Of a stretch of DNA of 64,000 bases, positions 3,441 through 63,140 are shown in pieces. The translations under genes were made by a program, and so were the position numbers. Source of the stretch: Warburgia ugandensis (Eukaryota; Streptophyta; Magnoliopsida; Canellales; Canellaceae); contig CP141135.1 of the NCBI GenBank assembly GCA_035236585.1, positions 2,576,001 to 2,640,000 of the forward strand. Direction: 5' to 3'. Within the stretch, counting starts at the first letter, position 1, and the number at the start of each line of letters is the position of its first letter. A model generated the notes under the pieces. That model was given only the letters and a program-made list of their open reading frames with translations. It was not told where the DNA came from and made no database searches.

Positions 3441-3648
3441 ATCACACCCTAAAATAACTACCTATGACAAGAATTTAAGGAATGCTTGTTGTGGACCACC
3501 CTTTTTTTTTTTTTTTCTCTTTTTCTCTCTACTAGAAGAGGCGGTCTAGGAAGAACAGAGGAGAATATATCAATTTCCTAAATTAAATGACTAACTACCA
3601 CAATAATTTGAGAAAAGCTTAAGCAGAGCCTTATCTTTTATCAAGTCT

Positions 3649-4934
3649 ATCTTCATATGATCCACTTATGAGCCACACCATGAAACTTTTTGAAAGAGTC
3701 ATTGAGAAGAGGCTACGACATGAAACAAGTGTATCGGAGAATCAGTTTGGTTTCATGCCTGGGAGGTCTACCATGGAAGCTATTTTCTTACTAAGACAAT
3801 TAGTAGAGAAATATAGGGAGAGGAGAAAAGACCTACACATGGTCTTTATTGACTTAGAGAAGGCTTATGATAGAGTCCCTAGAGAGTTAATATGGAGGGT
3901 GTTAGGTGTTAAAGGGGTTTCTCAGGGGTATATAGACATAATTAAAGATATGTATGAGGGAGCGGTAACAAATGTTAAGACCACTAGTGGCGTGGTAGTG
4001 ATTTTCCGTCCTTTGTCGGATTGCACCAAGGATCGGCATTAAGGCCATACCATTTCACATTAGTTATGGATGAGTTAACAAAACATCTGCATGAGGAGAT
4101 TCCACAGTGCATGCTATTTGCGAGACGATATAGTCCTACTTGATGAGACAAGGGAGGGTGTCAACATAAAGCTAGAGCTATGGAGAGAAGCGGTAGAATC
4201 GAAAGGATTTAAAATTAGCCGAACTAAGACGAGAATATATGGAATGTAATTTTAGCAAGGAGAGTAGGAGTGGAGCACCGGTCAAGATTGATAACCAAGA
4301 GGTCCCCATGAGAGACCACTTAGATACTTAGGATCATTGATCCATGAGAGTGGAGAGATTGAGATGGAGGTTACCCGAGAGAATCCAAGCGGGTTGGAAC
4401 AAATGGAGATGTGCATCGGGGTTTTATGTGATCTGCGGGTGCCACTCAAACTAAAGGGAAAATTCTATAGGATGGCTATAAGGCCGGCCATGCTCTATGG
4501 ATCGAGTGTTGGGCGGTTAAGGAACATCATACTCATAGGTGAGTGTTGCGAGAAATGAGGATGTTGAGATGGATGAGTGGTAAGACAAGAAAGGATAGAA
4601 TTAGAAATGAAAATATTAGAAGAAATTTAGGGATAGCACCAATAGGTAACAAGATGAGGGAGATTAGACTTAGATGGTTTGGACATGTTCAAAGGAGGCC
4701 AACAACGGCACCAGTTAGAAGGAGTGAGGCAATACAAGTTGAAGGTTCTAAAAGGGCAAGGGGAAGGCCCAAAAGAACGTGGATAGAAGTGGTGAGGAAA
4801 GATTTAAAAACTTTGGGACTAAATGAAGCCATGGTATTTAATAGAGTGGAATGGAGGAATAAGATTCATGTGGCCGACCCCTAATTGGGATAAGGTCTTG
4901 ATGATGATGATGATGATGATCTTCATATGATCCA
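3649..4934 (+). mobile_element. 5'-truncated RTE-clade LINE with perfect 16-bp target duplication
   Basis: The element body (3665-4918) starts inside reverse transcriptase and ends in ccgacccctaattgggataaggtcttg plus a (GAT)n tail, the usual 3' end of plant RTE LINEs. It is flanked by identical copies of atcttcatatgatcca at 3649-3664 and 4919-4934. RT motifs are readable: SENQFGFMPGRSTMEAIFLL and VFIDLEKAYDRVPRELIW at 3668-4042, then a damaged catalytic box near 4115-4145 where FADDIVLL has been frameshifted, and the thumb/C-terminal block KMREIRLRWFGHVQRRP at 4543-4884. Several frameshifts make it inactive. Three other fragments of the same family are in this window. Confidence 0.9.
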
Positions 4935-5034: not shown

Positions 5035-5780
5035 TTGGATGTCTCATGGTTAGGAAAATCAAAAAGTATACATAAGACCAGTGGGGGAGGAGAAGAAAGT
5101 AAAGTGTTGGATGATGTGGATAAGCCAAGGCTGTTCGCACATCTCAATCCATCTGGCCTTGCTAAAAAAAAACCTCAAGAAATCAGAAATAAGATAGCCT
5201 TCCACAAAAATTTCTGTAAAAAAAGAGCAGCAGCCAATCTTCGATAACAGCGTGAAAGTATTCTGAGGCAGCTCCCGAAGCTCAAAAGGTTAGTGAATAA
5301 GGTGTTGCGAGAACAGAAAGACCAGTACTTCATCTTCCACAAAAATTTCTGTAAAAAAAGAGCAGCAGCCAATCTTCGATAACAGCGTGAAAGTATTCTG
5401 AGGCAGCTCCCGAAGCTCAAAAGGTTAGTGAATAAGGTGTTGCGAGAACAGAAAGACCAGTACTTCATTGTTCTTGACAAACGAACTGAGCAAGGAGCTT
5501 ATATCCACTGTGATTCGCTAATCTATGATCAGACAACACAAATAATTACGAACATCTTAAATTCAAGTTTTCTGCAATGATGCTGAACCAAATAAAGACA
5601 ACAACCCAAACAAAAGTGCCTAACAGAACGAAATAGAAGAGTATCGTGAACGTAAACATGAATCAAGTCTTCAGTACCAACATACATTAGAGACCTGCAT
5701 AAAGGCCCTTCAAGAAACTACCCACGTTCAAATTTCTGAAGGAGAAAAGGGGATTCCTGTATGAGGGGACTGAACCATGT
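5035..5780 (+). pseudogene. Unrecognised coding-like relic with in-frame internal duplication
   Basis: A lysine/arginine-rich reading frame runs from 5035 to a TAA at 5245-5247. It continues in the same frame as QRESILRQLPKLKRLVNKV and, after a 135-bp duplication that preserves frame, as YFIVLDKRTEQGAYIHCDSL and IYDQTTQIITNILNSSF. A frameshift near 5577 moves the signal to the frame reading NDAEPNKDNNPNKSA and EEYRERKHESSLQYQHTLE, ending with a stop near 5761. The continuity of charged, helix-prone sequence across lesions argues for a broken gene rather than chance. I do not recognise the family. No start context or splice pattern could be established. Confidence 0.35.
5199..5468 (+). repeat. 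Tandem duplication, 2 x 135 bp, essentially identical
   Basis: The block beginning cttccacaaaaatttctg occurs at 5199-5333 and again at 5334-5468 with no difference that I can see. The period is a multiple of three, so the reading frame of the surrounding coding-like sequence is unchanged. The near identity points to a recent event. Confidence 0.95.
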
Positions 5781-12899: not shown

Positions 12900-13626
12900 T
12901 TTTTTTAGTTGCAGAACTAAGACAGAATATATGGAATGCGATTTTAGCAAGGAGAGTAGGAGTGGAACACCAGTCAAGATTGATAACCAAGAAGTCCCCG
13001 TGAAAGATCACTTTCGGTACTTATGATCATTGATCCATGAGAGTGGAGAGATTGAGAGGGAGGTTACCCAGAGAATCCAAGCGAGTTGGAACAAATGGAA
13101 ATGTGTACCTGAAGTTTTATGTGATTGGCAGGTGTCACTCAAACTAAAAGGAAAATTCTATAAGATGGCTATAAGACTAGCAATGCTTTATGGATCAGAG
13201 TGTTAGGCAATTAAGGAATATCATACTTATAGGATGTGCATTGCATAAATGGGGATGTTGAGGTGGATGAGTGGTAAGACAAAAAAGGATAGAATTAGAA
13301 ATGAAAATATTATAGAAAATCTAGGGGTGACACCAATAGGTAACAAGATGAGAGAGACTAGACTTAGATAGTTTGACATGTTCAAAGGAGACCAACAACG
13401 GCATCGGTTAGAATGAGTGAGACAATACAAGTAAAAGGTTCTAAAAGGGCAAGGGGAAGGCTCAAAAGAACGTGGATAGAAGTGGTGAGGAAATATTTTA
13501 AAACTTTAGGACTAAATGAAGCCATGTATTTAATAGAGTAGAATGGATGAATAAGATTCATGTGGCCGACCCCTAATTAAGATAAGGTCTTGATGATGAT
13601 GATGATGATGATGTTTTTTTTAGTTG
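12900..13626 (+). mobile_element. 5'-truncated RTE-clade LINE, 12-bp target duplication
   Basis: The body at 12912-13614 matches the last 700 bp of the LINE at 3665-4918, from the 'gaactaagacagaatatatgg' block to ccgacccctaattaagataagg and a (GAT)n tail. Flanking copies of tttttttagttg (12900-12911 and 13615-13626) mark the insertion site. It carries only the C-terminal part of the RT protein, with stops and indels. It is shorter than the 3.6-kb copy because of deeper 5' truncation. Confidence 0.88.
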
Positions 13627-15391: not shown

Positions 15392-16428
15392 TCTAAGAGC
15401 AATCTTGAAGATTTGTTGCTCCATTGCACAGATCGATCGACAAGGTCTCAATCCCTTTTCACGGAATGATCGATCTGCCATCCCGTAGTAGAAATGCAAC
15501 GATCTCATCTGCAATGGTATTATTAGATCAATCTGATCTATAGAAAATTCCTTCTTATATAATCCAGATCCAGCGTCTCCATCTTTGTCATCTTCGGTAC
15601 CACTTCTTTGTGTTTCTAGTTGCTCCATAGCAGAGCATTGTTGTTCTGTCTCGGTACACAAATCAACCTAATCTGTTGCTCCATGGCAAAAATCTATCTA
15701 TGAAGCATGGTCCAGATCATCAACACAAGCAAGCCACCGATACCGGATTCTGACGATACATCTAACGTGGAATCACGTGCACAGATATGATAACACGATA
15801 TCCGTATAATTGATCTCATTCGTCAATGAAACGAAGATTTTGATCTGGTTTTTGCTTCTATGATAAGCTAGCAAAATTGTCAGATCTCAATCTCTGCTTT
15901 AATAAGTCCCTCTATTAAGATCAAGTAATGTTTTTGCTCTTCGCCAGGTACATACTCCGCATCAACAGTCGACAATCGATCTTTTACTCGCTCGAAACAG
16001 TTCAAAGAGAGAATAACTTTCTTCAAATCGTGCCTTTCAATAGAAGTTGAAGGCTGGAGACCGAATTCCTAAAACATCTATGGCCAAGTCAAGCAGAATT
16101 TCGTCACAACACGGCTTACGGCCGGCGGGTATCCTCTGCATACCTTTTATGGTGCAGTTCGTCGGAAAGCTTTCTTCTTTTGTTCTTCTTTTTAACCGTT
16201 GAAAAGTAGTTAGCCGTAGAAGGGAGCGACGGTGAGGTTTCTCATTGCGGCTTCTTCTGGCCAAAGTCAGCAACCAGAACAAATAAAGAGAGTCAAAATC
16301 ATTGATATACTCTTCCGACTACACCCAAAATAAAGAATCAGATCTCAAATCTAAAGTCTATATCACCTTCATATAAGCTTTGCCCTCTGTATCACCTACT
16401 TCACCCTCCTGCTGCATGCCACAAACCG
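15392..16428. other. Unassigned sequence downstream of the copia LTR
   Basis: Contains two related 'ttgctccatggcaaaaatc/ttgctccattgcacagatc' blocks near 15415 and 15675, plausibly leader or gag debris of the element to the left. No readable protein domain. Confidence 0.3.
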
Positions 16429-16665
16429 ATGGCACCTAAAGGTACAGTTGCCATCGGTGGAAAATCCAATACCGGAGGGGTACAAGGAGTGCATTTCAGT
16501 GGAATTAGGAAGAGGCAATGGGGGAGATATGCAGCTGAGATTAGGTATCCTGACAAGAAAAGTCGTGTCTTTCTTGGTATTTTTGACATGGCAGAAGAAG
16601 CGACCACCGCCTCATTCCATAAGGAAATGGCAGGTAGCGTATATAGTGATTTGAGAGAAAACTGA
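16429..16665 (+). pseudogene. AP2/ERF transcription factor fragment
   Basis: The 78-codon frame starts at an ATG. It contains [20 protein letters not shown] followed by [17 protein letters not shown], which are the YRG and RAYD-side elements of an AP2/ERF DNA-binding domain (family form: HFRG-V/I-RKRPWGR-AAEIRDP ... R-V-W-LGTFDTAEEAA). The usual RAYD end is missing. After about residue 62 the similarity stops, then TGA at 16663-16665. Substitutions at conserved sites (R to S in HFRG, P to Q in KRPW, D to Y after EIR) and the missing C-terminal half point to a decayed copy. It lies about 1 kb after a copia LTR; whether it was carried there is unknown. Confidence 0.7.
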
Positions 16666-17427: not shown

Positions 17428-17642
17428 TTCATTGCATTTAGAAGGAGAGCCTTACTGCTCCGGGAGAATTGTCATTATGTGACCTTTGAGGTCATAGGTT
17501 CAAGACGTGAAAATAGCCTTCTGCAAAAAATGTAAGATAAAATTGCATACTATGAGCCCTTATAGTTCACCTCTTCTCCAGACCCTACATATGCGGAAGC
17601 TTCGTACACTGAACTGCCCTTTTTTATTTAATTCATTGCATT
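17428..17642 (+). mobile_element. Au-type SINE, full length but diverged, with target duplication
   Basis: The body runs from a degenerate gaaggagagcctt to the ctgccctttttt end. It carries the Pol III B box ggttcaagac at about 17508, cttctgcaaaaaatg, and the 3' block ccagaccctacatatgcggaagcttcgt. Copies of ttcattgcatt at 17428-17438 and 17632-17642 flank it. It is the most diverged of the near-full-length copies here, hence probably old. Confidence 0.85.
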
Positions 17643-18387: not shown

Positions 18388-18487
18388 ATCGTGTGCCAAG
18401 CAATTGTGGCCCGCCCCTTCCCCAGACCCCGCATAGGCGGGAGCTTTGTGCACTGGGGCTGCCCTTTTTTATCGTGTGCCAAGCAAT
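18388..18487 (+). mobile_element. Extremely 5'-truncated Au SINE (66 bp) with perfect 17-bp target duplication
   Basis: Only the last part of the Au SINE is present (18405-18470: tgtggcccgccccttcccc ... gggctgccctttttt). It is flanked by identical atcgtgtgccaagcaat at 18388-18404 and 18471-18487. The perfect repeats show that the short piece is an insertion in its own right, not a remnant of a longer copy. Confidence 0.93.
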
Positions 18488-19133: not shown

Positions 19134-19323
19134 AAGAACACATCGTGGGTCAAAAAAGGGGCAGCCCCAGTACACAAAGCTCCCGCCTATACGGGGTCCG
19201 GAGAAGGTGCAGGCCACAATGGCCTAAAGTAGGCAGCCTTACCTTGCATTTTGGCAAGAGGCTGATTCTCCGCCTTGAACCTGTGACTTCAAGGTCACAT
19301 GACCTCAAGACCACACCGTGGGT
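19134..19323 (-). mobile_element. Au SINE, minus orientation, lightly 5'-truncated
   Basis: On the minus strand the body (19306-19151) runs from the tgaggtcatgtgacc region, lacking roughly the first 25 nt, to ggggctgcccctttttt. The B box region and the cctcttgccaaaatgcaaggtaag block are clear. Flanks aagaacacatcgtgggt (19134-19150) and aagaccacaccgtgggt (19307-19323) are a 15/17 target duplication, which agrees with some age. Confidence 0.88.
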
Positions 19324-22367: not shown

Positions 22368-22497
22368 TAATCAAATAAGTCTTTTTTGGACCTCAAATAT
22401 ATATCTAGCCCATTATCTATGACTAGCAACTCTATGTCAAGGTCATCATCAATATCAACAGAATAATCACTATCATGGCGAGACTGGTGATTTTCCT

Positions 22498-23268
22498 GTC
22501 ACTGTAAGATTATTCCAAGGATCAGCATTGAGCTCATACCTTTTCACATTGGTTATGGATGAGTTAACAAAACATCTGCACGAGGAAATTCCCTAGTGCA
22601 TGCTATTTGCAGATGATATAGTCTTACTTGATGAGACAAGGGACGGTATAAACATAAAGCTAGAGTTATGGAGAGAAGCATTATAATCTAAAGGATTTAA
22701 AATTAGCCGAGCTAAGACATAATATATGGAATGTAATTTTAGCAAGGAGAGGAGTGGAACACCAGTCAAGATTGATAACCAAGAAGTCTCCGTAAAAGAC
22801 TACTTTCGGTACTTGAGAGGGAGGTTACCCAAAGAATCCAAGCGAGTTAGAACAAATGGAGATGTGCATCTGGAGTTTTGTGTGATAGGCGGGTGCCACT
22901 CAAACTAAAAGAAAAATTCTATAGGATGGCCATAAGGCTGGCCATGCTCTATAGATCAGAGTGTTGGGCAGTTAAAGAACATTATGATCATAGAATGAGT
23001 ATCGCAGAAATGAGGATGTTGAGATGAATGAGTGGTAAGATAAAAAAGGATAGAATTAGAAATGAAAATATTAGAGGAAATTTAGGAGTAGCACCAATAG
23101 ATAACAAGATGAGGGAGATTAGACTGAGATGGTTTGGACATATTCAAAAGAGACCAACAACGGCACCAATTAGAAGGAGTGAGGCAATACAAGTAGAAGG
23201 TTCTAAAAGGGTAAGGGAAAGGCCCAAAAGAATGTGGATAGAAGTGGTGTAGAAAGATTTAAAAACTG
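22498..23268 (+). mobile_element. RTE-clade LINE fragment lacking both ends
   Basis: This matches the LINE at 3665-4918 from the middle of RT through the C-terminal block and stops abruptly inside 'agatttaaaaact', about 100 bp before the family 3' end. It keeps a readable catalytic box ([12 protein letters not shown], about 22599-22634), which is broken in the 3.6-kb copy. It also has the thumb block KMREIRLRWFGHIQKRP at 23028-23252. The absence of the (GAT)n tail and of target repeats suggests a later deletion. Confidence 0.85.
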
Positions 23269-26942: not shown

Positions 26943-27332
26943 AGATCATTTTGCTTACAGTGGGATAGGCATCTACTTTTCTGCTTTCTTAAATCATCTA
27001 TAGAGAAGTCAAATGTGAAATCGTGATTAAGATTTCAAGCCCATGTTTCGAAACTAGTTTAGTAGAAACCCCCATGTGAAATGGGTGATCAAGAAGAATC
27101 AATAAAATTGAGGAAATCAAGAAGGCATAGGAATTAGAGATCATTTTGCTTACAGTGGGATAGGCATCTACTTTTCTGCTTTCTTAAATCATCTATAGAG
27201 AAGTCAAATGTGAAATCGTGATTAAGATTTCAAGCCCATGTTTCGAAACTAGTTTAGTAGAAACCCCCATGTGAAATGGGTGATCAAGAAGAATCAATAA
27301 AATTGAGGAAATCAAGAAGGCATAGGAATTAG
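26943..27332. repeat. Tandem duplication, 2 x 195 bp, no difference seen
   Basis: The unit starting agatcattttgcttacag is present at 26943-27137 and 27138-27332. Reading both copies side by side I see no mismatch. It is not coding. Either a very recent duplication or an assembly artefact would explain it. Confidence 0.95.
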
Positions 27333-29080: not shown

Positions 29081-32000
29081 TCACAATTTCTTCAAGATAT
29101 CTGCAAATTCCTTTACTTCTTCCAGCCTCACCGACAAGCCTACAAAAAAGGTCAGCCAAATGCATTGCCATAGTACCTGTTATCATTTCTATGCGTTGTT
29201 GAAACAACAATTTACAATCCCGGTACTATGTAGATAATTACCTTTTCTATGCATCATGGAGCGGCTATTGTCGGAGCTGTATATCTTCTGGATTCTGTTG
29301 CGTTCTGTCTCTTCACTCCTTTGCACCTTCAACTTCTCCAATTTTTCCCGCAGTCTTGAAGTGGTTCTTACCAACTCTGTCGAAAGTAAATGTTCTTAGT
29401 GGTTATAATTTACGAAAATAGAGAAAAGTGAAAAGCAGATAGATGAAGTGTGCAGTATTAGTTATGTTGATTTTCAACAAAAGAAAAAAATGGCTTATGT
29501 CATATGTTTATTGATAACAACAACGAGGAAAGCCAATTTACAGCATATATACAGAGTACACATAAAAAGGGGGCAGCCCGGTGCACGAAGCTCCAGCCTA
29601 TGCGGGGTCCGGGGAAGGGGGGGGACCATAAGGGCCTATCGTAGGCAGCCTCACCTTGCATTTTGCAAGAGGCTGATTCCACGCCTTGAACCCGTGACCT
29701 CAAGGTCACATGACGACAACTTTTACCATTACTCCAAGGCTCCCCTTCATACAGAGTACACATAAAAAATCTAAATACTGTACGAGTCATTTAGGTAAAA
29801 AGTAAAACCTTCCACTTAAGGACCTAGAGACTGTTATGAAGATAAGTTTTAACCCTATAGCTTCATTTTATCAACTGAAAAGTAGGATCAACCACGTATC
29901 ATTGTAAAAAGACTCTTGAGCATTATAGCTGCAAACAGCACAATTACAAGAACAATGAAGTGTTATCTGCTATTCTCTGCACAAGTAGATGGAGCCCACT
30001 ATTTCATGCTTTCTGATATAAATCAATAAAACCTTACATCTTCAGAATACATGTGCAGTTATCATGACAAATATTCACAATCTGACTCAGACCACCACAA
30101 TGTGAAGAGAAAACATCAATACCTTACATGTCTATCACCAGACAATTCAAATCCTAAACCACAACTAAGCACCAGCAAATGTCTTCATGATACAATGCAT
30201 ATACTAGTGCACACAAATTGTCTATCTCATGTCTACAAGGCACTTTTTGTAGATTGAGTAAAATATTGTAAGTTGTAGCAATTGCAAAAAATATTTTCTT
30301 GCACATGTAATTACTGCAGAGTGATCATTCTGATTTTTGTTAATAAACAAATGTGTTGCCACAGAAACGACATTTTGATAAAGGCATACCTTGAAACATG
30401 TCATGTGTAGAACTTTGACCAAACAGTTCTAATGCCTCACAGACAGACTCTGCATAGCTGCTGCTTATAGACTGCTTCTCCAATGCCTGGAGCTCTCTAT
30501 GCAGCTCAGATGATTCGCTCCCAACCTGAGGGAGCCACCATGTGTCTCAAAAACAGATTACCTCCATAAAATGATAAAATAAGAATATACGTAAGAAAGA
30601 AAGGAACAAGAGAAATGATGGTGTTTACCACACAAAGCTTTTTCCTCAAGGAGTCTAATTGAGCATCCAGCTCTCCATCTCCAAGCCCTTCTTGAAGTAA
30701 CAAATCACTATTAAGTGACTCCTGAAAGAAACAGAAATCATTATGGAAAAAATCTATCATGTACACAAATACATGCTGTTGATTATTGCGGATGTTATTC
30801 TGAACTCCAGGAGACAGATTTGACATGGACACGCAGAAACACCAAAGAAATTTCAGAAAATAGCATATTCTTTAACAGCATACATCAGCAAACCGCCACT
30901 TTGTCCCTAGGAGAAAAGGTACTGCCTCAAATGGGAGCGCTCCACTCCTTGTTACCAAATTATCCTCATCCATAACTAAACATTTCTTCTCATTCCTAGT
31001 TATGCTCTGTAGAATCTCAGTGCCATGGTATTACATTAAGACTCCACCAAGGGTAAATTAAACAGTCGTACAAGCAATACACTGTCAACACTAAGGAAAA
31101 CAAAAGAGCGCAGTCCCCGCAAAGCAGCTCCTCTGATAGTGGATATACATGGAAAGCCATAACACTCATCTTTAGTCCCAATAAAGCCACCACCTACAGC
31201 CAAAATCTAAGCTTTAACAGATTTTGCAGAGGACTTAATATGGAAAACAGTTGGGAAACTGAAGGTAGAAATCTGAAACCTATCCAAGCACTAGCTAAAA
31301 GGCACACATACACCAAATCAAGATGAGGCAGCTGCTCTGTGATTTGCACCCTTCCAAACATAATCAGTAACAGTAACTGTGACAGAAGAATCCTGTTAAA
31401 ATTTTACTTTGGCATCAAATCGTGATGGATACAAGGAAAATAAAAATAAAAATCCAAATACCTTCGTCTTCAATAAAACCTTGATAAATCCAATGTGCAC
31501 AAAGCTCAAACGGCAAATAAAATTCTCAGGTTTAGCATTTAAATTAGGCTGCACTGTTTAGCAGCTCATACATATTCAGCAATTTTTAATGCTAGTTTTG
31601 TTCAAATTTCAACTACCTGAGTATTTCTACATCATCATCGGCTGAAAGGACCCAATATAAAACATGAAAAATATGGGTACCTTTGCAACAAATATGCACA
31701 ACTATGCTACTCGTATAGCTTTTCATAGAATAAAGAAAAGACTCTGCAGCTCTCAAAGTTAATAAGACAAAGAACCTACATCTTGTGGCAGTGAGAATCC
31801 TTCAGGTACAGCAAAACAATGTCGTAAACAATACTTCTCCCACATATCCAGTCGCTTGTCCAAAACACTTTGAAGCATGTAACGGAGAGAAGAAACACCC
31901 TGTTAAAGTATAACATAGGAATTAATGTTAGGACCGATGTACAAATGAAGACACTTCTTTAGGAAGATACAGATGGCAACTACGCTCGTCTAAACTTTAA

Positions 32001-35000
32001 AGTTCGAGATGAAATATAATGGCTTGTGCCAAAATTGATGTCAGATGCCAACACAGACACTCTAATCGTGAAAATTCTTATAAAAGAAAAACTGTGGAAG
32101 ATAAATTGTAGGGGCCATGAGATGAGTTTGAAATAAGAAGAAGAGAATCACCAATTGCCTTCAATGTGAATAGCAACATGACCTCTATAGATTTCACTGG
32201 AAGAAACAACCAATAAGTTAAAGGAAACAAAAATGTATGCTTCACCAGATGGTGAACGACTTGGCCTAATAAAAATGTTCTCTGTTCCAACTTTATGGTC
32301 CCAAGATAGCCTTGACTTTATAATATGTGTTCTCCAGACAGACAAAAATGATGACACCTCAACAGAGTATATATACTTTACAAATCTTCATATCAGCACC
32401 ACTGCAAAGCACACATCTCACAGTTATTCCAAAAGGGCGAATGAGGTAATGGCTTTCTCAACAATGTTTAATATGACAACCAACCACAAATCAAAACATA
32501 TCTCTACCTTTGCTGTCTACAATAATAAAATTATTAGAAACCCAAGGAAGGATATAGAAGCTGCCTGAGAGACACAGTAGAGAAAAAAGGTGAGGAAAGA
32601 GCAGATAATAATGAAGAATCAAACTTGGACCCCAAGACCCAACAACTAAAAGCTACTGCATTGGCTTCCTGAATCAGCCTTCCATGAATGTATGATTGGC
32701 TGCTCCTAAACATTAATAAAGGAGATATTCAGAGAATAATGCCTGCCATGGATGATAATTGGATGCTCTTAAACATGAATGGGAGATATTCAGAGAATAA
32801 AGTAGATTGAGCATATTCTCTATATAATTCACAAGCATTCATGGTAATGTGATTCATGAGACATCAACATACTCTGTAGGCCAATTTTTTTCAGTCATGA
32901 ACCAGAAGTCACTTAGGGAGCTAATCTCAACCCCTGAAAAAATCATTGCCTTTAGGACCATCGAGCAAAGGCCTTCTAGTGCAGTGGTGCAAAAAGGAGC
33001 CTTTCCATGGTAGGTCTTGAATTCAAGACTGCCCATGCGTGTCTATGTACAACATTCAAGGAAAGAATTAAAAAATATCTCTGTTAGACAATTAGTCTAC
33101 TGGTTTTACAACAAAAAGGAGAGTATTGTTAGACAATTAATAGAAAGGAGAGGCTTCTGACAGAAAATAACAGAAAAGAGGACCTGACAAAATTCGGTTA
33201 CAGTAGGGAGGAAGAATATTTGGCAGAGGGGGAGAAATAAAAGAAAAGGAAGGAAATCAAAAGGGATACCCAAGAACTAGAAGAAGAAAGAAAAAGTGGG
33301 AGGATCTAGCTGCTCGAAAGCTAGAAATTGTAATCTGGAAACTCTATAGACAAAAACCAGTACTTGTATAACTCACATCGCTGATTCTACCAGCTTGATT
33401 TGTTGTAATTGGAAAGTCTGTATCTAATTCTTCCATTGAGAATTTATTACCATTTGCTTGAATTAGTCGAGTCTATCAAGTGGTATCAGAGCCGGTTCGA
33501 GCCTAGGGAATGGTTAGAACCAGGATGGAAAGAATAGAGAGCATAGGGAAGGAGACAGAAGGAGTCAGAGGTGAGTTAGGAGATTTAAAGGAACATATGG
33601 GGAGATTGCAGACGAATGTCAACATCTTAGGGAATATTTTGTGGAGATACGTGAATGGATCAAGAACAAAGACACGCCGGAGGAAGGTAGAGATAGTCAT
33701 AGGAACATAGAGGTTGGGAAGACCTCCAACAATCACAGATGGAGTCCATCCTTGCCGGAAAACCATCATCGGCACGAGTTTCAAGGCCAGAGATTGAATC
33801 TGCCAATATTCGACGGCCAAGAACCCTATGGCCGGCTTTGTCAAGCAGAACGCTATTTCCAAGTCAATCACATCTCCGACAACAAGAAGATATCAGCAGC
33901 GACCATTTGCCTAGAAGGAGATGCACTCCACAGGTTCTTGTGGACAGAATCAAGAAATTCCTTCCGATCTTGGGGATCTTTCCGGTCATCCCTACTACGC
34001 CATTTCTGCTTGTCCCAATTGGACGACAACTATGAAGCCCTCCTAGCTTTGAGGCAAAACAGCAGCATCTTCGAGTACCTCCGGTCGTTCGAGCTGTTCT
34101 CCAATCATCTGGGGGATCTCTCCGACGAATTGCTGAAGGGGGCTTTCTTGAATGGGCTCCGGGAAGACATCAAGGCAAAGATAAAGCTCTTCAGGCTTAC
34201 CTCTCTATCTGGGCTTAGGGAGTTAGCCCACAAGATTGAAGAAAAGAACCGGGCTTTGGACCAGATACAGGCCCGTCCAGTAAGAAACGATGTTGGACCA
34301 AGAATGTCGAGGCCCATCCAGGCTCATTCAAAGAGCAGTTCGATGGAAGTGGGTTCGCATGGGCAGTTTCGTAATTTACCCATCGTCTTCCCCAGCACTG
34401 ATAGGAACAAGGGTTTCGGTATGGAAACCGATTGGGAGAGGCAGATCGTCGAACATCCTACCGAAAAAAGGGAACCTCTATGAAAGCTCACCAACGCTGA
34501 GCTACAACAACGACGAACACAAGGATTGTGTTACCAATGTGATGAGAAATATCAACCGGGGCACAGATGTAAAAATAGGAAGCTATAGGTGCTACTCCTC
34601 GTCGACGAAGACTACGATCAAATGAAAACCACTCCAGCAGACCTGGACGACCAAAGGGACAAGGAAAACCGACCCCTAGAGTTATCCCTGAATTCAATTT
34701 TGGGTTTAACGACAGGTGGTACTATGAAAGTTAAGGGTCTGGTCGAGAAGAGGGATGTGGTAGTATTGATTGACAGTAGGGTTTCCCACAACTTTATTTC
34801 CAACCCATTAGTTGAAGGGGAGCCTTGGAGCAACAGTAAAAGTTGTTGTCGTGTGACCTTGAGGTCACGGGTTCAAGGCGTGGAAACAACCTCTTGCAAA
34901 ATGCAAGATAAGACTGTGTACTTTAAGCCATTGTGGTCTGCCCCTTCCCCGGACCCCGCATAGGCGGGAGCTTCGTGCACTAGGGCTGCCCTTTTTTTTA

Positions 35001-38000
35001 GTCGAAGAACACTAGTTATCAGTGGATCAATCACACCGATTTGGAGTGCAAGTTGGGGATGGGCATTGCATCAAAGGGCAAGGCATCTGTTGGCAGATAA
35101 AATTGAATCGGCCAGGGATCACAGTGGTTCAAGATTTCCACCTGTTCAACCTTGGCAAGCAGACATGGTCCTGGGGATAGCATGGTTAGAAACCTTGGGG
35201 GAGATTTTGGGAAATTTCCGTGATCTGACCATGCAATTCAGAGTGGGTGGACATCAGATCATCTTGAAAGGTGCAGAAACAATTAGAAGAGCTTTAGATC
35301 TTGGAGTAAGAGTCAAGATGATTACAGGAGATCAATTGGCAATTGCTAAGGAAACTAGGGGTCGCTTGGAAATGGGTACTAACATGTATCCATCTTCATC
35401 TTTGTAGGGGGAAAGTAAGGATGAGGCTGTTTCAGCTCTACCAATCGATAAAGTAATTGAGAAGGCTGATGGTTTTGCTAGAGTCTTTCCTGAACATAAA
35501 TATGAGATCGTGAAGAAATTGCAAGCTAGAAAGCACATCTGCAGAAGGACTGGTGATGGGGTTGATGATGCACTTGCTTTAAAGAGGGCAAACATAGGAA
35601 TTGCAGTGGTTGATGCCACAGATGCTGCCCGAAGTGCTTCTGACATAGTTCTAACAGAGCTTGGACTAAGTGCTATCATTAGTGCTGTTTTAACAAGCCC
35701 TGCAATTTTTAAGAGAATGAAAAACTATATGATATATGCTGCGTCTTTCACCATCCGTATAGTGTTTGGATTTTTGTTACTGGCTCTCTTTTGGGAATTC
35801 AACTTTCCTCCTGCCATTCTTAACAATGGTACTATTATGACAATCTCCAAGGACAAGGTTAAGCCTTCTCCACTTCCTAATAGTAGGAAACTCAGTGAAA
35901 TATTTGCAAATGGAGTTGTCAATGGCAGTTATCTGGCTGTCATGACTGTTATATTCTTTTGGGCAGCTAATAACTCCAAGTTTTGAACTTAAAGCTAGAC
36001 AAGATGAATGATAATGCTGTGAAAGCTAACCAACAAATGCTCACATCTGCTGTATATCTGCAAGGGAGCATCATTAGCCAAGCATTGATATTTGTTACTC
36101 GTTCAAGGGGCTGGTCTTTCATGGAACATCCGGGTCTTCTGCTTGTTGCTGCTTTTCTCATCGCTCAACTGATTGCTAGTGTCACATCGGCTGAAGCAAA
36201 CTGGAATTTTGCTAGAATACAAAAAATTGGTTGGCGTTGGGCTGAGGATATTTGGCTCTTCAATCTTGTATCTTACCTTCTTCTTTATCCTATAAAATTC
36301 TCTGTTCGATATGCACTCAGTGGGAGAACCTGGGGGTTGGTTCTAGACAAGAGGACAACATTCACAAATCAAAAAGACTTTGGCAAAGAGGGTTTGGAGG
36401 CTGCCTGACAACACCTGGGAACAAATGGATGTCATTCAGATGCAGTTCCCTGACTTCCACCTTGAGGACAAGGTGGCAATTTTCCGGGGGGGGTGGTTAT
36501 TGTTAGACAATTAGTCTACTGGTTTTATAACAGAAAGAAGGGTATTGTTAGACAATTAATCAACTGGTTTTATAACAAAACGGAGAGGCTTCTGACAGAA
36601 AATAAAAGAAAAGAGGATCAGACAGAATTTGGTTACAGTAGAGAGGAAGAACATCTGGCAGAGGGGGAGAAATAAAAGAAAAGGAGGGAAATCAAAAGGG
36701 ATATCCAAGAACTAGCAGAAGAAGAAAGGAAGAGTGGGAGGATCTAGCTCCACGAAAGCTAGAAATTGCAATCTGGAAACTCTGTAGACAAAAAACCAGT
36801 ACTTGTATAACTCACATAGCTGATTCTGTCAGCTTGATTTGTTATAATTGGAAACTCTGTATCTGATTCTGCCATTGAGAATTCATTACCATTTGTTTGA
36901 ATTAGTCTACTCTATCAATCTCCAAGGCCACTGATTTCTGCCTTGCCAAATTGATGCACAATCAACCTTGAGATTTAACCACATAATAAAGAGGAGATTG
37001 CCAAACAACAATCAATTTGAATCTTAAGGCAGCCAGATTGAGAATTGCTCCAATATCTTCTATGCAACTTTAGTTTCAAGACAAAATCACTCAATGAAGA
37101 CAACTTAACTAATGGGTTAAATAATTCAACAGTTACAAAATCAGAGAATGCAACACAATATAATGTCTCTTGTGCTATAAATTTGTCAAAGGTATCCTCA
37201 AATAAATGTCAGAACTGAAACTTCAAGCTTACTGTTGCCATTGCTATTCGTACCATCACTTCTCCTCTAAATGATTAACCCTCAGATAGAGCTTTTCTTA
37301 TTTTAAATGAGAATGGAATGTCTTTTATATATAACAAGCAACAACTACATGACGAAATGGTTGGCCATAGTAAACTTGTGGATAATGAGAGTAAATGCTT
37401 TTCTATCTCTGAGGCCCGATCCAAGAAAGAAAGCTATCACATTAACATGTTCATTTAAACCATTAAATCCCTAGGCATTCTATTTCATGTGGCCTGCTTG
37501 ACTCTATACTACGTCAATAAGTAAAGAATTTCAATATTTCATTCAACTTTGTTTTCAATTATTTTAGATTGCTTATCATACAAATAACATCAAAAGGGGA
37601 GCCTTGGGGCAACAGATGAGTTGTCGCTGCATGAGCTAGGGGTCATGGGTTCGAGTCATGAAAACGGCCTCTTGCAAAATGCAAGGTAAGGCTGCATACT
37701 ATAGGCCGCCCCTTCACTAGACCACACATACATGGGAGCTTCATGCACCGGGCTTCACTAGACCACACATACATGGAGACAGAAAACCACACTTATATCA
37801 AAAAGCATATTTAGCGGGAATATAAAACAACAATCCTTCTCAATTGATCAGGGTTCAACAAGCCTCTCAGCAGCAATCCATGTTCAAATTTGTTAATGAC
37901 ATACACTAGAAAAAAGGCAACAGAAATTACCTGGCTTAGCTCGTTGGACTTATTTATACCCCTCTTCTGCATAAGTTCGGAAGCTTCCCTGCAGAAACAA

Positions 38001-45965: not shown

Positions 45966-49516
<3,551 letters not shown>

Positions 49517-50650
49517 GAGATGGAATTTCAGGAACTGGGAACTTTGTTGGGCTTCTGTTTATGTTCGGAGAAAATGTGGAACCAACTAAGGAAGGCAATC
49601 TAGATGAAATTATCGATTTCCACAGGAGTGGGTCATGAAGAACAACAGCGCTATTGATTTATATTCTTTATACGATCCGTGTGGTTCAAGAAGTAGAGCA
49701 GCATTTGAAGGAGAAATACAATGAACCCAAGTACCAAGGCGGCATTGAAATGCAGAAATTACAAGCAAAAGATACGGAAACCAAGACAAAGTCAAGTTGA
49801 GAATTGAATTCTTTTAACAATTAAGAAATCATTAGGAGAGGAACCCTTTACCAAGCAAACCTCTATATGAGTTCTTTGACATTAGGAAAGAGCCAAAAAC
49901 CAGGGAAAATTGGTTGTTCAAGAAGTAGAAAGACACAAGAAAGGTAAACCAAGAAAAAGTCAAGATGGTTTCTTCGTCTTTTGAAAGACTAGACTGTAAG
50001 CTTGAATCAAAGGTGGAAAAACCAAAATGAGATCACAGTAAGAAACAATGACAGAAAAATGAATTCATAAAGCAGAAAAGAAACTGTGGGCAGCTGTGTT
50101 TAGCAGAATCCACAAAAGAGAAGCTTGTCAGATGAAAGATCTTTTAAGTTCCACAAAAAAAAAAAAACAGAGGCCAACAGGAACAAAAGAAAGAGAAAGA
50201 TAGAAGAGGAGAGAACTCAATCGAACTGAGAAATCCAGATGTGTTTTCTGCAATTTTGTGAGGTAGAGAGAAAGGGGAGCATTAATGGCCCAAAAGAAGA
50301 AGTTGTCACATAGAAAAAGTACCCATGTGAGCCCTCACGTCCATGTGTATTATCCCTGCTGATATGCTCTGGTTGTACCAAACAGAACCAAAGATTTCCT
50401 CTCTCTCTTTCTCTCTGTTTCCCTTCTCTATGTCCCTTACCATCCTATCTCACTAGGATAAAAGCAGTTGAAGTAGATAAAAGGTATAACCATATAAAAA
50501 TGAAAACAAATACAACAGAAGTCTGCCAAAAAAACAAAGAAAAAGCTGCAGAGAATGGCTCTCTTCCACTGTTTATATTGATAGAGACATGGGTGAGAGA
50601 ATTTCCTTCTCTCTCCCTCTCTCTAATGCAATATATAATCTTGTGACAGA
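49517..50650 (-). promoter_or_regulatory. CKX 5' flank and candidate promoter
   Basis: On the minus strand a TATA-like tataaac lies at 50577-50571 in the context caatataaacagtgg. Another candidate, tataaag, lies near 49660, about 140 nt from the start codon. CT-rich runs near 50400-50430 and 50605-50625 are typical of plant promoter regions. Which TATA is used cannot be told. No type-B response-regulator cluster was recognised. Confidence 0.25.
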
Positions 50651-52605: not shown

Positions 52606-52841
52606 CATCCTAACCACTCTAAAAGGGCAGCCCCTGTGCATAAAGCAGCCATGTATGCAAGGTCTAGGAAAGGGGCAGACCACGAGGATTTATATTACGC
52701 AGCCTTACCTTGCATTTTTGGAAGAGGCTATTTCCACCCATTGAACCCATATTTTCAAGGTCACACGACAACAACTTTACTGTTGCACTAAGGCTTCCCT
52801 TCATAACCTCAAGGTCACATGACGACATCATAACCACTCTA
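52606..52841 (-). mobile_element. Au SINE, minus orientation, with extra SINE-derived 5' segment
   Basis: The main body in minus orientation starts gggaagccttagtgcaacag and ends ggggctgccctttt. Beyond its 5' end (52802-52825) there is a second copy of the internal segment tgtcgtcatgtgaccttgagg, and only then the flanking repeat. Flanks catcctaaccactcta (52606-52621) and catcataaccactcta (52826-52841) match at 15 of 16 and enclose both parts, so the chimera inserted as one unit. Confidence 0.85.
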
Positions 52842-61839: not shown

Positions 61840-63140
61840 CAACCATGGGGAATATTACTCTTGGTTAGACGGTGCAATTGTCTCGATTATGATTTACTGG
61901 AGAGACTTTATTTTGTCTGCGAAGAAAACCAGCATCATGAGTTGAATAATTTGCTTCAAAATATGTTCCTAATTAGATCAAAAGCGAGACGTAAATTAGT
62001 AGGGCGGTGGACTTCTTCAAAGTAAGTTTTCAGTCAGATCCATTTATGGGAAGATTGCAGGAGCCTTTCAAGAGCGACATGGGTGATTAGTCCATGAAAG
62101 ATTCCCCGGCCCACCTTGTGTCATTGTCTTTGCTAGCTTGCCTCCTTGAGTGGAATCCTCATGGTGGATAAATTGAAAATCTTTGCCTGGAAATTTCTAG
62201 AGTACTGCTCTATGTTTGAAGTGGGGGAAGAATTCAGATAATTTACTTGTAGATAGTGGGTTTTCTTCCAAAACTTGGAGATTTGTATTTGTTTTATTTT
62301 CAAGAGAGTGGGTAAGGCCTAGAACTAAAGCGACAGAAATAGTGCATGAAGGCATTTTCAGGCCTAGACAAAATGAAAATTTCTTGGTCGCTTCTGTGGG
62401 CTGCCACCCTTTGGACTATATGGAATGAACGGAAAGGTCTCACCTTCATAAAATGAATCAAGAGAAGAGCATGGCTTGTTTGAGGAGATTTTTAGTCTCA
62501 CTTGTTGGTGGGATCAAGAGGACTCAGAAGGGATATTCTGAATCTAAGTGAACACCACCCCCTTTTGACACTTCAAATCTAATTTTGATAGTTCAAGCAT
62601 TAGTTATCTGAATCTTTGGGACTATAAGGGATATTTTTAGATATCACTTGGAGGTCTTGGTGTAACGGTAAAGTTGTCATTGTGTGACCTTGAGGTCAGG
62701 GGTTCAAGGCATGAAAATAGCCTCTTGCAAAAATGCAAGGAAAGGCTGCGTACTATAGACACTTGTGATCCGCCCCTTCCCTAGACCCTCCATATGCAGG
62801 AGCTTTGTGCACCAGGGCTGCCCCTTTTTTACTTGGAGGTCATGAACTTAGCACACTCAGGTCCTATTAGCACTGCTGATTCAAACAAGGTAGAGGTATG
62901 TTCTCTTGGTCACTGGTTTGGAAATCTGGAATGTGGATGTTGTGGTTCCACTAGTGGTTTAAGGAGACTCTTTCAATGTGATTTGCGGGATCACAACATC
63001 TGAAAAACCTCTATGGATATTTCGAGATACTATTGATCAAGTTAATTCTATTGTGGAATCCCATGAGGATTCATTTCAATAATGTCAAGAGATTGGCAAA
63101 TGATAAAGCAGACGAGCTTACTAGAAAGTGGAATTGATAG
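61840..63140 (+). pseudogene. Decayed L1-type LINE 3' end (zinc-binding RT tail and RNase H)
   Basis: Fragments in several forward frames line up with the tail of plant L1 LINE polyproteins. SKTWRFVFVLFSREWVRPRT (62255-62315) followed by a basic, tryptophan-poor segment and LRRFLVSLVGGIKRTQKGYS corresponds to the zf-RVT module and its linker. MNLAHSGPISTADSNKVEVC (62842-62902) resembles the RNase H segment with the conserved D-S-N-x-A-E. NVKRLANDKADELTRKWN (63080-63135) is the RNase H end. Upstream of the SINE, YKGYFRYHLEV would be the strand before the D-S-N motif. The frame is broken many times. A SINE interrupts the RNase H part. Confidence 0.65.
62646..62841 (+). mobile_element. Au SINE inserted in the L1 RNase H relic
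   Basis: Body 62657-62830: cttggtgtaacggtaaagttg, B box ggttcaaggc, cctcttgcaaaaatgcaagg, ccttccctagaccc and ggctgcccctttttt. Flanks acttggaggtc at 62646-62656 and 62831-62841 are identical. The left flank overlaps what would be the ggggagc start of the family, so the exact 5' border is uncertain by a few bases. Confidence 0.92.

Follow-up and report, generated by a model that had tools for sequence, protein, structure and literature searches.

The 64-kb window analysed here (the whole stretch of 64,000 nucleotides, positions 2,576,001 to 2,640,000 of contig CP141135.1) carries at 33082-36917 a decayed, non-autonomous Ty3/gypsy retrotransposon with long terminal repeats (LTRs), which most probably captured a piece of spliced plasma-membrane H+-ATPase mRNA during reverse transcription. 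An element of this extent (33077-36922 with its flanks), with LTRs, TG and CA ends and an ATCTC duplication, had been proposed in a first-pass annotation, and it was confirmed to the base. The 5' LTR (33082-33478, forward strand, 397 bp) and the 3' LTR (36501-36917, forward strand, 417 bp) both read TG...CA and lie between copies of ATCTC at 33077-33081 and 36918-36922, to which no strand is assigned. The annotated primer-binding site TGGTATCAGAGCC is present at 33481-33493 on the forward strand, and we take it to be of the initiator-Met tRNA type, as had been claimed. Likewise, the annotated G-rich polypurine tract is found as GGGGGGGGTGG at 36486, just upstream of the 3' LTR. Direct LTRs, TG...CA ends, a target-site duplication, a primer-binding site and a polypurine tract, the marks of an LTR retrotransposon, are thus all found. 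Over 397 aligned bases the two LTRs show 33 differences (23 transitions and 10 transversions; Kimura two-parameter distance 0.089), that is 0.0445 per site for a single LTR, and their alignment has gaps of 16, 3 and 1 bp. At the LTR starts (33082-33141 and 36501-36560) the LTR end is tandemly repeated, TGTTAGACAATTA recurring 45 bp inside, and 16 bp of the second tandem unit are absent from the 5' LTR. The element occurs once within the window. Among viral contigs, six stretches fitted the pattern of its gag and none was confirmed as a relative, and the exact LTR-end pattern was not found.

The captured segment lies at 35273-36405 on the forward strand and extends from residue 483 to beyond residue 832 of AHA2. 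Sequence search against the PDB matched 35273-35404 to AHA2 (5ksd) 483-526 (E 2.5e-16), 35408-35983 to 529-725 (E 4.8e-83) and the open reading frame (ORF) at 35974-36405 to 732-832 (E 2.8e-32). The solved chain ends at 833, and past 832 the segment still agrees with a Quercus protein through ...GKEGLEAA. The annotated 1.1 kb or so of H+-ATPase coding sequence is 1133 bp long. The segment is in sense orientation and collinear with the mature protein over AHA2 483-832, about 350 residues, and no intron-like insertion was found over this range. Its pieces fall below the curated cut-offs of Pfam (best Hydrolase, E 0.017, 15.9 bits against 26.4), and two of the three pieces gave no family, so it is the PDB and protein searches that identify the segment. 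The captured part does not include the conserved phosphorylation motif, which reads DKTGTLT in the Amborella protein and precedes AETIRR. The segment is interrupted by a single TAG stop at 35405, a deletion of 18 bp and a single frameshifted loop (35963-36039). This loop has 77 nt where Tasmannia has 36 codons and Amborella 34, and is thus 25-31 nt shorter. With its stops and frameshifts, the element is now dead.

Upstream of the segment the element retains a gag open frame of 302 codons (33575-34480, forward strand, frame 2) that matches Pfam Retrotrans_gag (E 1.8e-10). The protease side of the polyprotein follows at 34589-34807 (forward strand, frame 2), and beyond a SINE-like (short interspersed element-like) repeat the rest of the protease with a linker occupies 35008-35272 (forward strand), reading FGVQVGDG...DFHLFNLG in frame 3 up to a frameshift near 35155 and continuing in frame 2. 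A protein search with the protease-side region (1908 candidates, kept at E <= 0.001) gave ten Ty3/gypsy-type polyproteins, P0122-P0131 (E 3.8e-15 to 9.9e-4), seven of them named from plants (Morus, Pistacia, Trifolium and Cuscuta). Their best local matches have 43-70% identity and span 12-33% of the query region, and the context is similar up to the 5' junction of the ATPase segment. The protease piece itself stays below the Pfam cut-off (RVP_2, E 0.16). Hence, of the gypsy gag and protease claimed at first, gag is borne out by Pfam and the protease, interrupted by the repeat, by the polyprotein matches, not by the Pfam cut-off.

All ten relatives have a reverse transcriptase (RT) domain in the precomputed list, unlike this element, which has none. 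The domain order was protease-RT-RNase H-integrase in the three relatives scanned, and no pol of the RT-RNase H-integrase order was found in the element among its ORFs and Pfam matches, so that the element is a deleted, non-autonomous derivative. Downstream of the ATPase segment comes the element tail with the polypurine tract (36401-36500, forward strand, tail in frame 2), which overlaps the ATPase end at 36401-36405 by possible junction similarity. When the tail was aligned with the ten relatives, P0130 (score 75) and P0129 (73) were clear and P0131 (41) weaker, the other seven scoring 24-36. Between the points matching both junctions, these three tail-aligning relatives have 959, 934 and 961 residues. 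This agrees with the claim that RT, RNase H and most of integrase had been replaced, 934-961 residues being absent at the place of the ATPase segment. What had been claimed as the integrase tail is a stretch of about 31 residues that belongs downstream of integrase; recognisable integrase itself was not found.

At the 5' junction the local alignments of nine of the ten relatives reach the last residue before it (...LKG), and that of P0124, which ends 8 residues short, was extended without gaps. Past this point the relatives read D (four of ten, all DPSL) or Q (six of ten). Because gag, the protease start and the first half of the ATPase segment all share frame 2, the 5' junction is in frame, which alone has a one-in-three chance. 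The 3' part of the ATPase segment is in frame 1 and stops at the junction with a TGA (36406); the element tail is in frame 2. The first-pass annotation had named as decisive against capture an independent retrocopy carrying a poly(A) or a target duplication of its own, and neither of these was found: the longest word common to both junction flanks has 4 bases (2000 random draws gave mostly 4-6), and runs of A in 36381-36470 do not exceed 3. Pol is replaced by the ATPase segment, which is not a plain insertion.

To time the capture, we used codons that are conserved in plant H+-ATPases. Of the 120 listed proteins, 105 contain the exact anchor AETIR (the 15 without it include the Magnolia, Vitis and Cryptomeria rows), and the removal of the badly modelled P0002, P0003 and P0016 left 102. 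Among 195 codons identical in these 102 proteins, 24 are changed in the segment (29 of 241 at a looser conservation cut-off). The leave-one-out controls had a median of 0 changed codons over the 102 rows, with 0-5 of 178-200 in the rows printed (highest 5/192 and 5/200). The segment has decayed by some 0.058 +/- 0.011 changes per site, with 0.056-0.063 as the range across settings. This is compatible with the 0.0445 per LTR, and the rate looks neutral, without sign of selection. As the ATPase part has decayed no less than the LTRs have diverged, it is no younger than the insertion, and the capture took place at or before that event.

These observations may be explained as follows. The ATPase mRNA would have been packaged together with the element RNA in a gag particle, where minus-strand synthesis would have started at the tRNA primer, been transferred to the 3' LTR and proceeded through the 3' tail. 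Synthesis may then have switched onto the ATPase mRNA near codons E-A-A-W and copied back to S-A-E, before a second switch, where the protease region ends, returned it to the element RNA. Intact elements of this or a related kind would have supplied RT and integrase, and integration of the chimera would have produced the 5-bp target duplication. At the time of capture, the sequence could have coded for a fusion of Gag, protease and ATPase that lacked the phosphorylation site and ended at the TGA of the 3' junction. The published model of LTR-mediated retroposition is template switching at short similarities inside the particle (PMC5408686). The anatomy, the collinear match and the replacement of pol support the view, first proposed in the annotation, that an LTR element captured part of an H+-ATPase.

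Several points weigh against this explanation. The similarity at the junctions is bounded only from amino acids; so bounded, it allows 2-3 shared bases at the 5' junction, and at the 3' junction one base is shared (G at 36407), with up to 9 (GGCTGCCTG) possible by the presumed ancestral codons. That the donor gene has introns over the captured region is our assumption. A protein search with the 3' tail gave two candidates, neither of which was scored, and found no relative, so that the element origin of the tail rests on two clear and one weak of the ten relatives. Moreover, the decay estimated for the ATPase is somewhat higher than that for the LTRs, though within error, and rounds of transposition may have preceded this insertion.

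A genomic ATPase fragment or a processed pseudogene could also have entered the element at the DNA level, by break repair or recombination, and the short junction similarity fits end joining too. We regard this as unlikely, because the segment is collinear with the mature protein for some 350 residues with no intron-like insertion, and because its sense orientation together with the in-frame 5' junction is natural for an RNA template. Still more doubtful is an independent ATPase retrocopy, for example one mediated by a LINE (long interspersed element), that landed in a resident element and was followed by deletion of pol. ORFs that look by eye like pieces of LINE reverse transcriptase do occur in the window at 3623-4881. 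Nevertheless, a LINE-type processed retrocopy was rejected for want of a poly(A) and a target duplication around the ATPase segment; in addition, both ends of the segment are inside coding sequence, it stands in place of pol and does not interrupt it, and it has not decayed less than the LTRs have diverged. That the assembly wrongly joined an LTR element and an unrelated ATPase pseudogene is scarcely credible, given two junctions within one LTR pair with a matching 5-bp duplication and the similar decay of both parts.

A tree was built from 32 rows, namely 31 hand-picked fetched proteins and the ATPase segment. The segment fell within a 12-row clade (100/100) that includes Aristolochia, Tasmannia, Amborella and seven eudicot rows among others, with no monocot row of the 32-row tree; neither the eudicot set (100/98) nor the group with rows named ATPase 11 or 4 included it. 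Its branch is long and its exact place weak (61/71). Such a placement makes a eudicot host improbable and would suit a magnoliid, and a monocot host stays conceivable. The best identities over 368 columns were with Tasmannia (78%), Aristolochia (77%) and Amborella (76%). By its place in the tree, then, the donor is an H+-ATPase of a clade separate from the ATPase 4/11-type rows. This clade presumably resembles the AHA10 type, a label borne by no row of the tree. AHA10 in Arabidopsis is a narrowly expressed isoform, and the label, if right, weakens the picture of a very abundant donor mRNA. The top ATPase match, P0002 of Quercus suber (573 bits), was dropped as a lead to the donor: its score is inflated because it carries the same stretch twice, and its identity is 71%. 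This protein of 940 amino acids contains two tandem copies, with deletions, of the 3' half of an H+-ATPase; it may represent a pair of pseudogenes or a duplicated stretch that annotation has fused. Fusions of ATPase and retrotransposon domains in other species were not seen among the 120 matches listed of 7584.

In retroviral gene transduction, a piece of host mRNA takes the place of pol between the LTRs. The element described here is alike in this respect; it differs in being a plant retrotransposon, decayed and without sign of function. The same parallel has been drawn for Bs1 of maize (PMC11963269), an LTR element described as containing part of a plasma-membrane H+-ATPase, exons only (PMC13317346; PMC4717578). 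Our element resembles Bs1 in having part of a gene of the same family inside an LTR element, again apparently as exons only. On the other hand, Bs1 is reported to have parts of three host genes (PMC13317346), whereas only the ATPase was found here. The parallel with Bs1 noted in the first-pass annotation holds for the gene family and for an H+-ATPase piece within an LTR element in both. The capture was likely independent of Bs1, since the host is probably of another group and only the ATPase was found.

The capture of host genes by LTR elements is a known kind of event, of which our element is a further example. In maize, 425 intact LTR elements with gene fragments are reported from at least 189 independent captures (PMC2774510), and 672 captured genes in rice and 1,343 in sorghum have been counted in LTR elements (PMC3726574). 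These surveys, like our analysis, concern host gene fragments within full-length LTR elements, and they provide counts, whereas a single element was dissected here. The word ATPase is absent from the main text of the rice and sorghum survey (PMC3726574). The passages covered name no second H+-ATPase capture by an LTR element, and we make no claim that none is in print. The bias towards H+-ATPase mRNA suggested in the first-pass annotation is unsupported: with at least 189 independent captures in maize (PMC2774510), a second plant ATPase case needs no bias. It is very improbable that unrelated LTR elements in distant angiosperms repeatedly capture this mRNA, favoured by packaging, stability or germ-line expression.

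The SINE-like repeat in the protease occupies 34808-35007 with its flanks (core 34818-34997, no strand assigned) and lies between TTAGTTGAAG (34808-34817) and TTAGTCGAAG (34998-35007), which agree at nine of ten bases. We infer that it is a separate, later insertion. Its family, which we take to resemble the Au SINE of plants, has eight members or pieces in the window including this one, the other matches being at 29564-29726, 19152-19303, 62670-62830, 52621-52778, 18398-18470, 17478-17625 and 37620-37748.

Elsewhere in the window, three related copies that look by eye like the reverse-transcriptase end of a LINE (3998-4923, 12924-13615 and 22487-23267) are 62-94% alike in matched pieces. Two perfect tandem duplications of 195 and 135 bp (26943-27332 and 5199-5468) either arose recently or are artefacts of assembly. 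By eye from the translations, ORFs at 48196-49558 on the reverse strand look like exons of a cytokinin dehydrogenase, and one at 16306-16662 on the forward strand looks like an AP2/ERF transcription factor.

Finally, this element alone leaves the picture of gene capture unchanged. It adds a second case of H+-ATPase capture, this time probably from a plant that is not a grass, and an unusually legible one, in which both junctions, the LTRs, the target duplication, the primer site and the polypurine tract are preserved in one copy. The decay of highly conserved ATPase codons puts the capture at about the time of insertion, and such conserved codons are a way to time captures without donor DNA.

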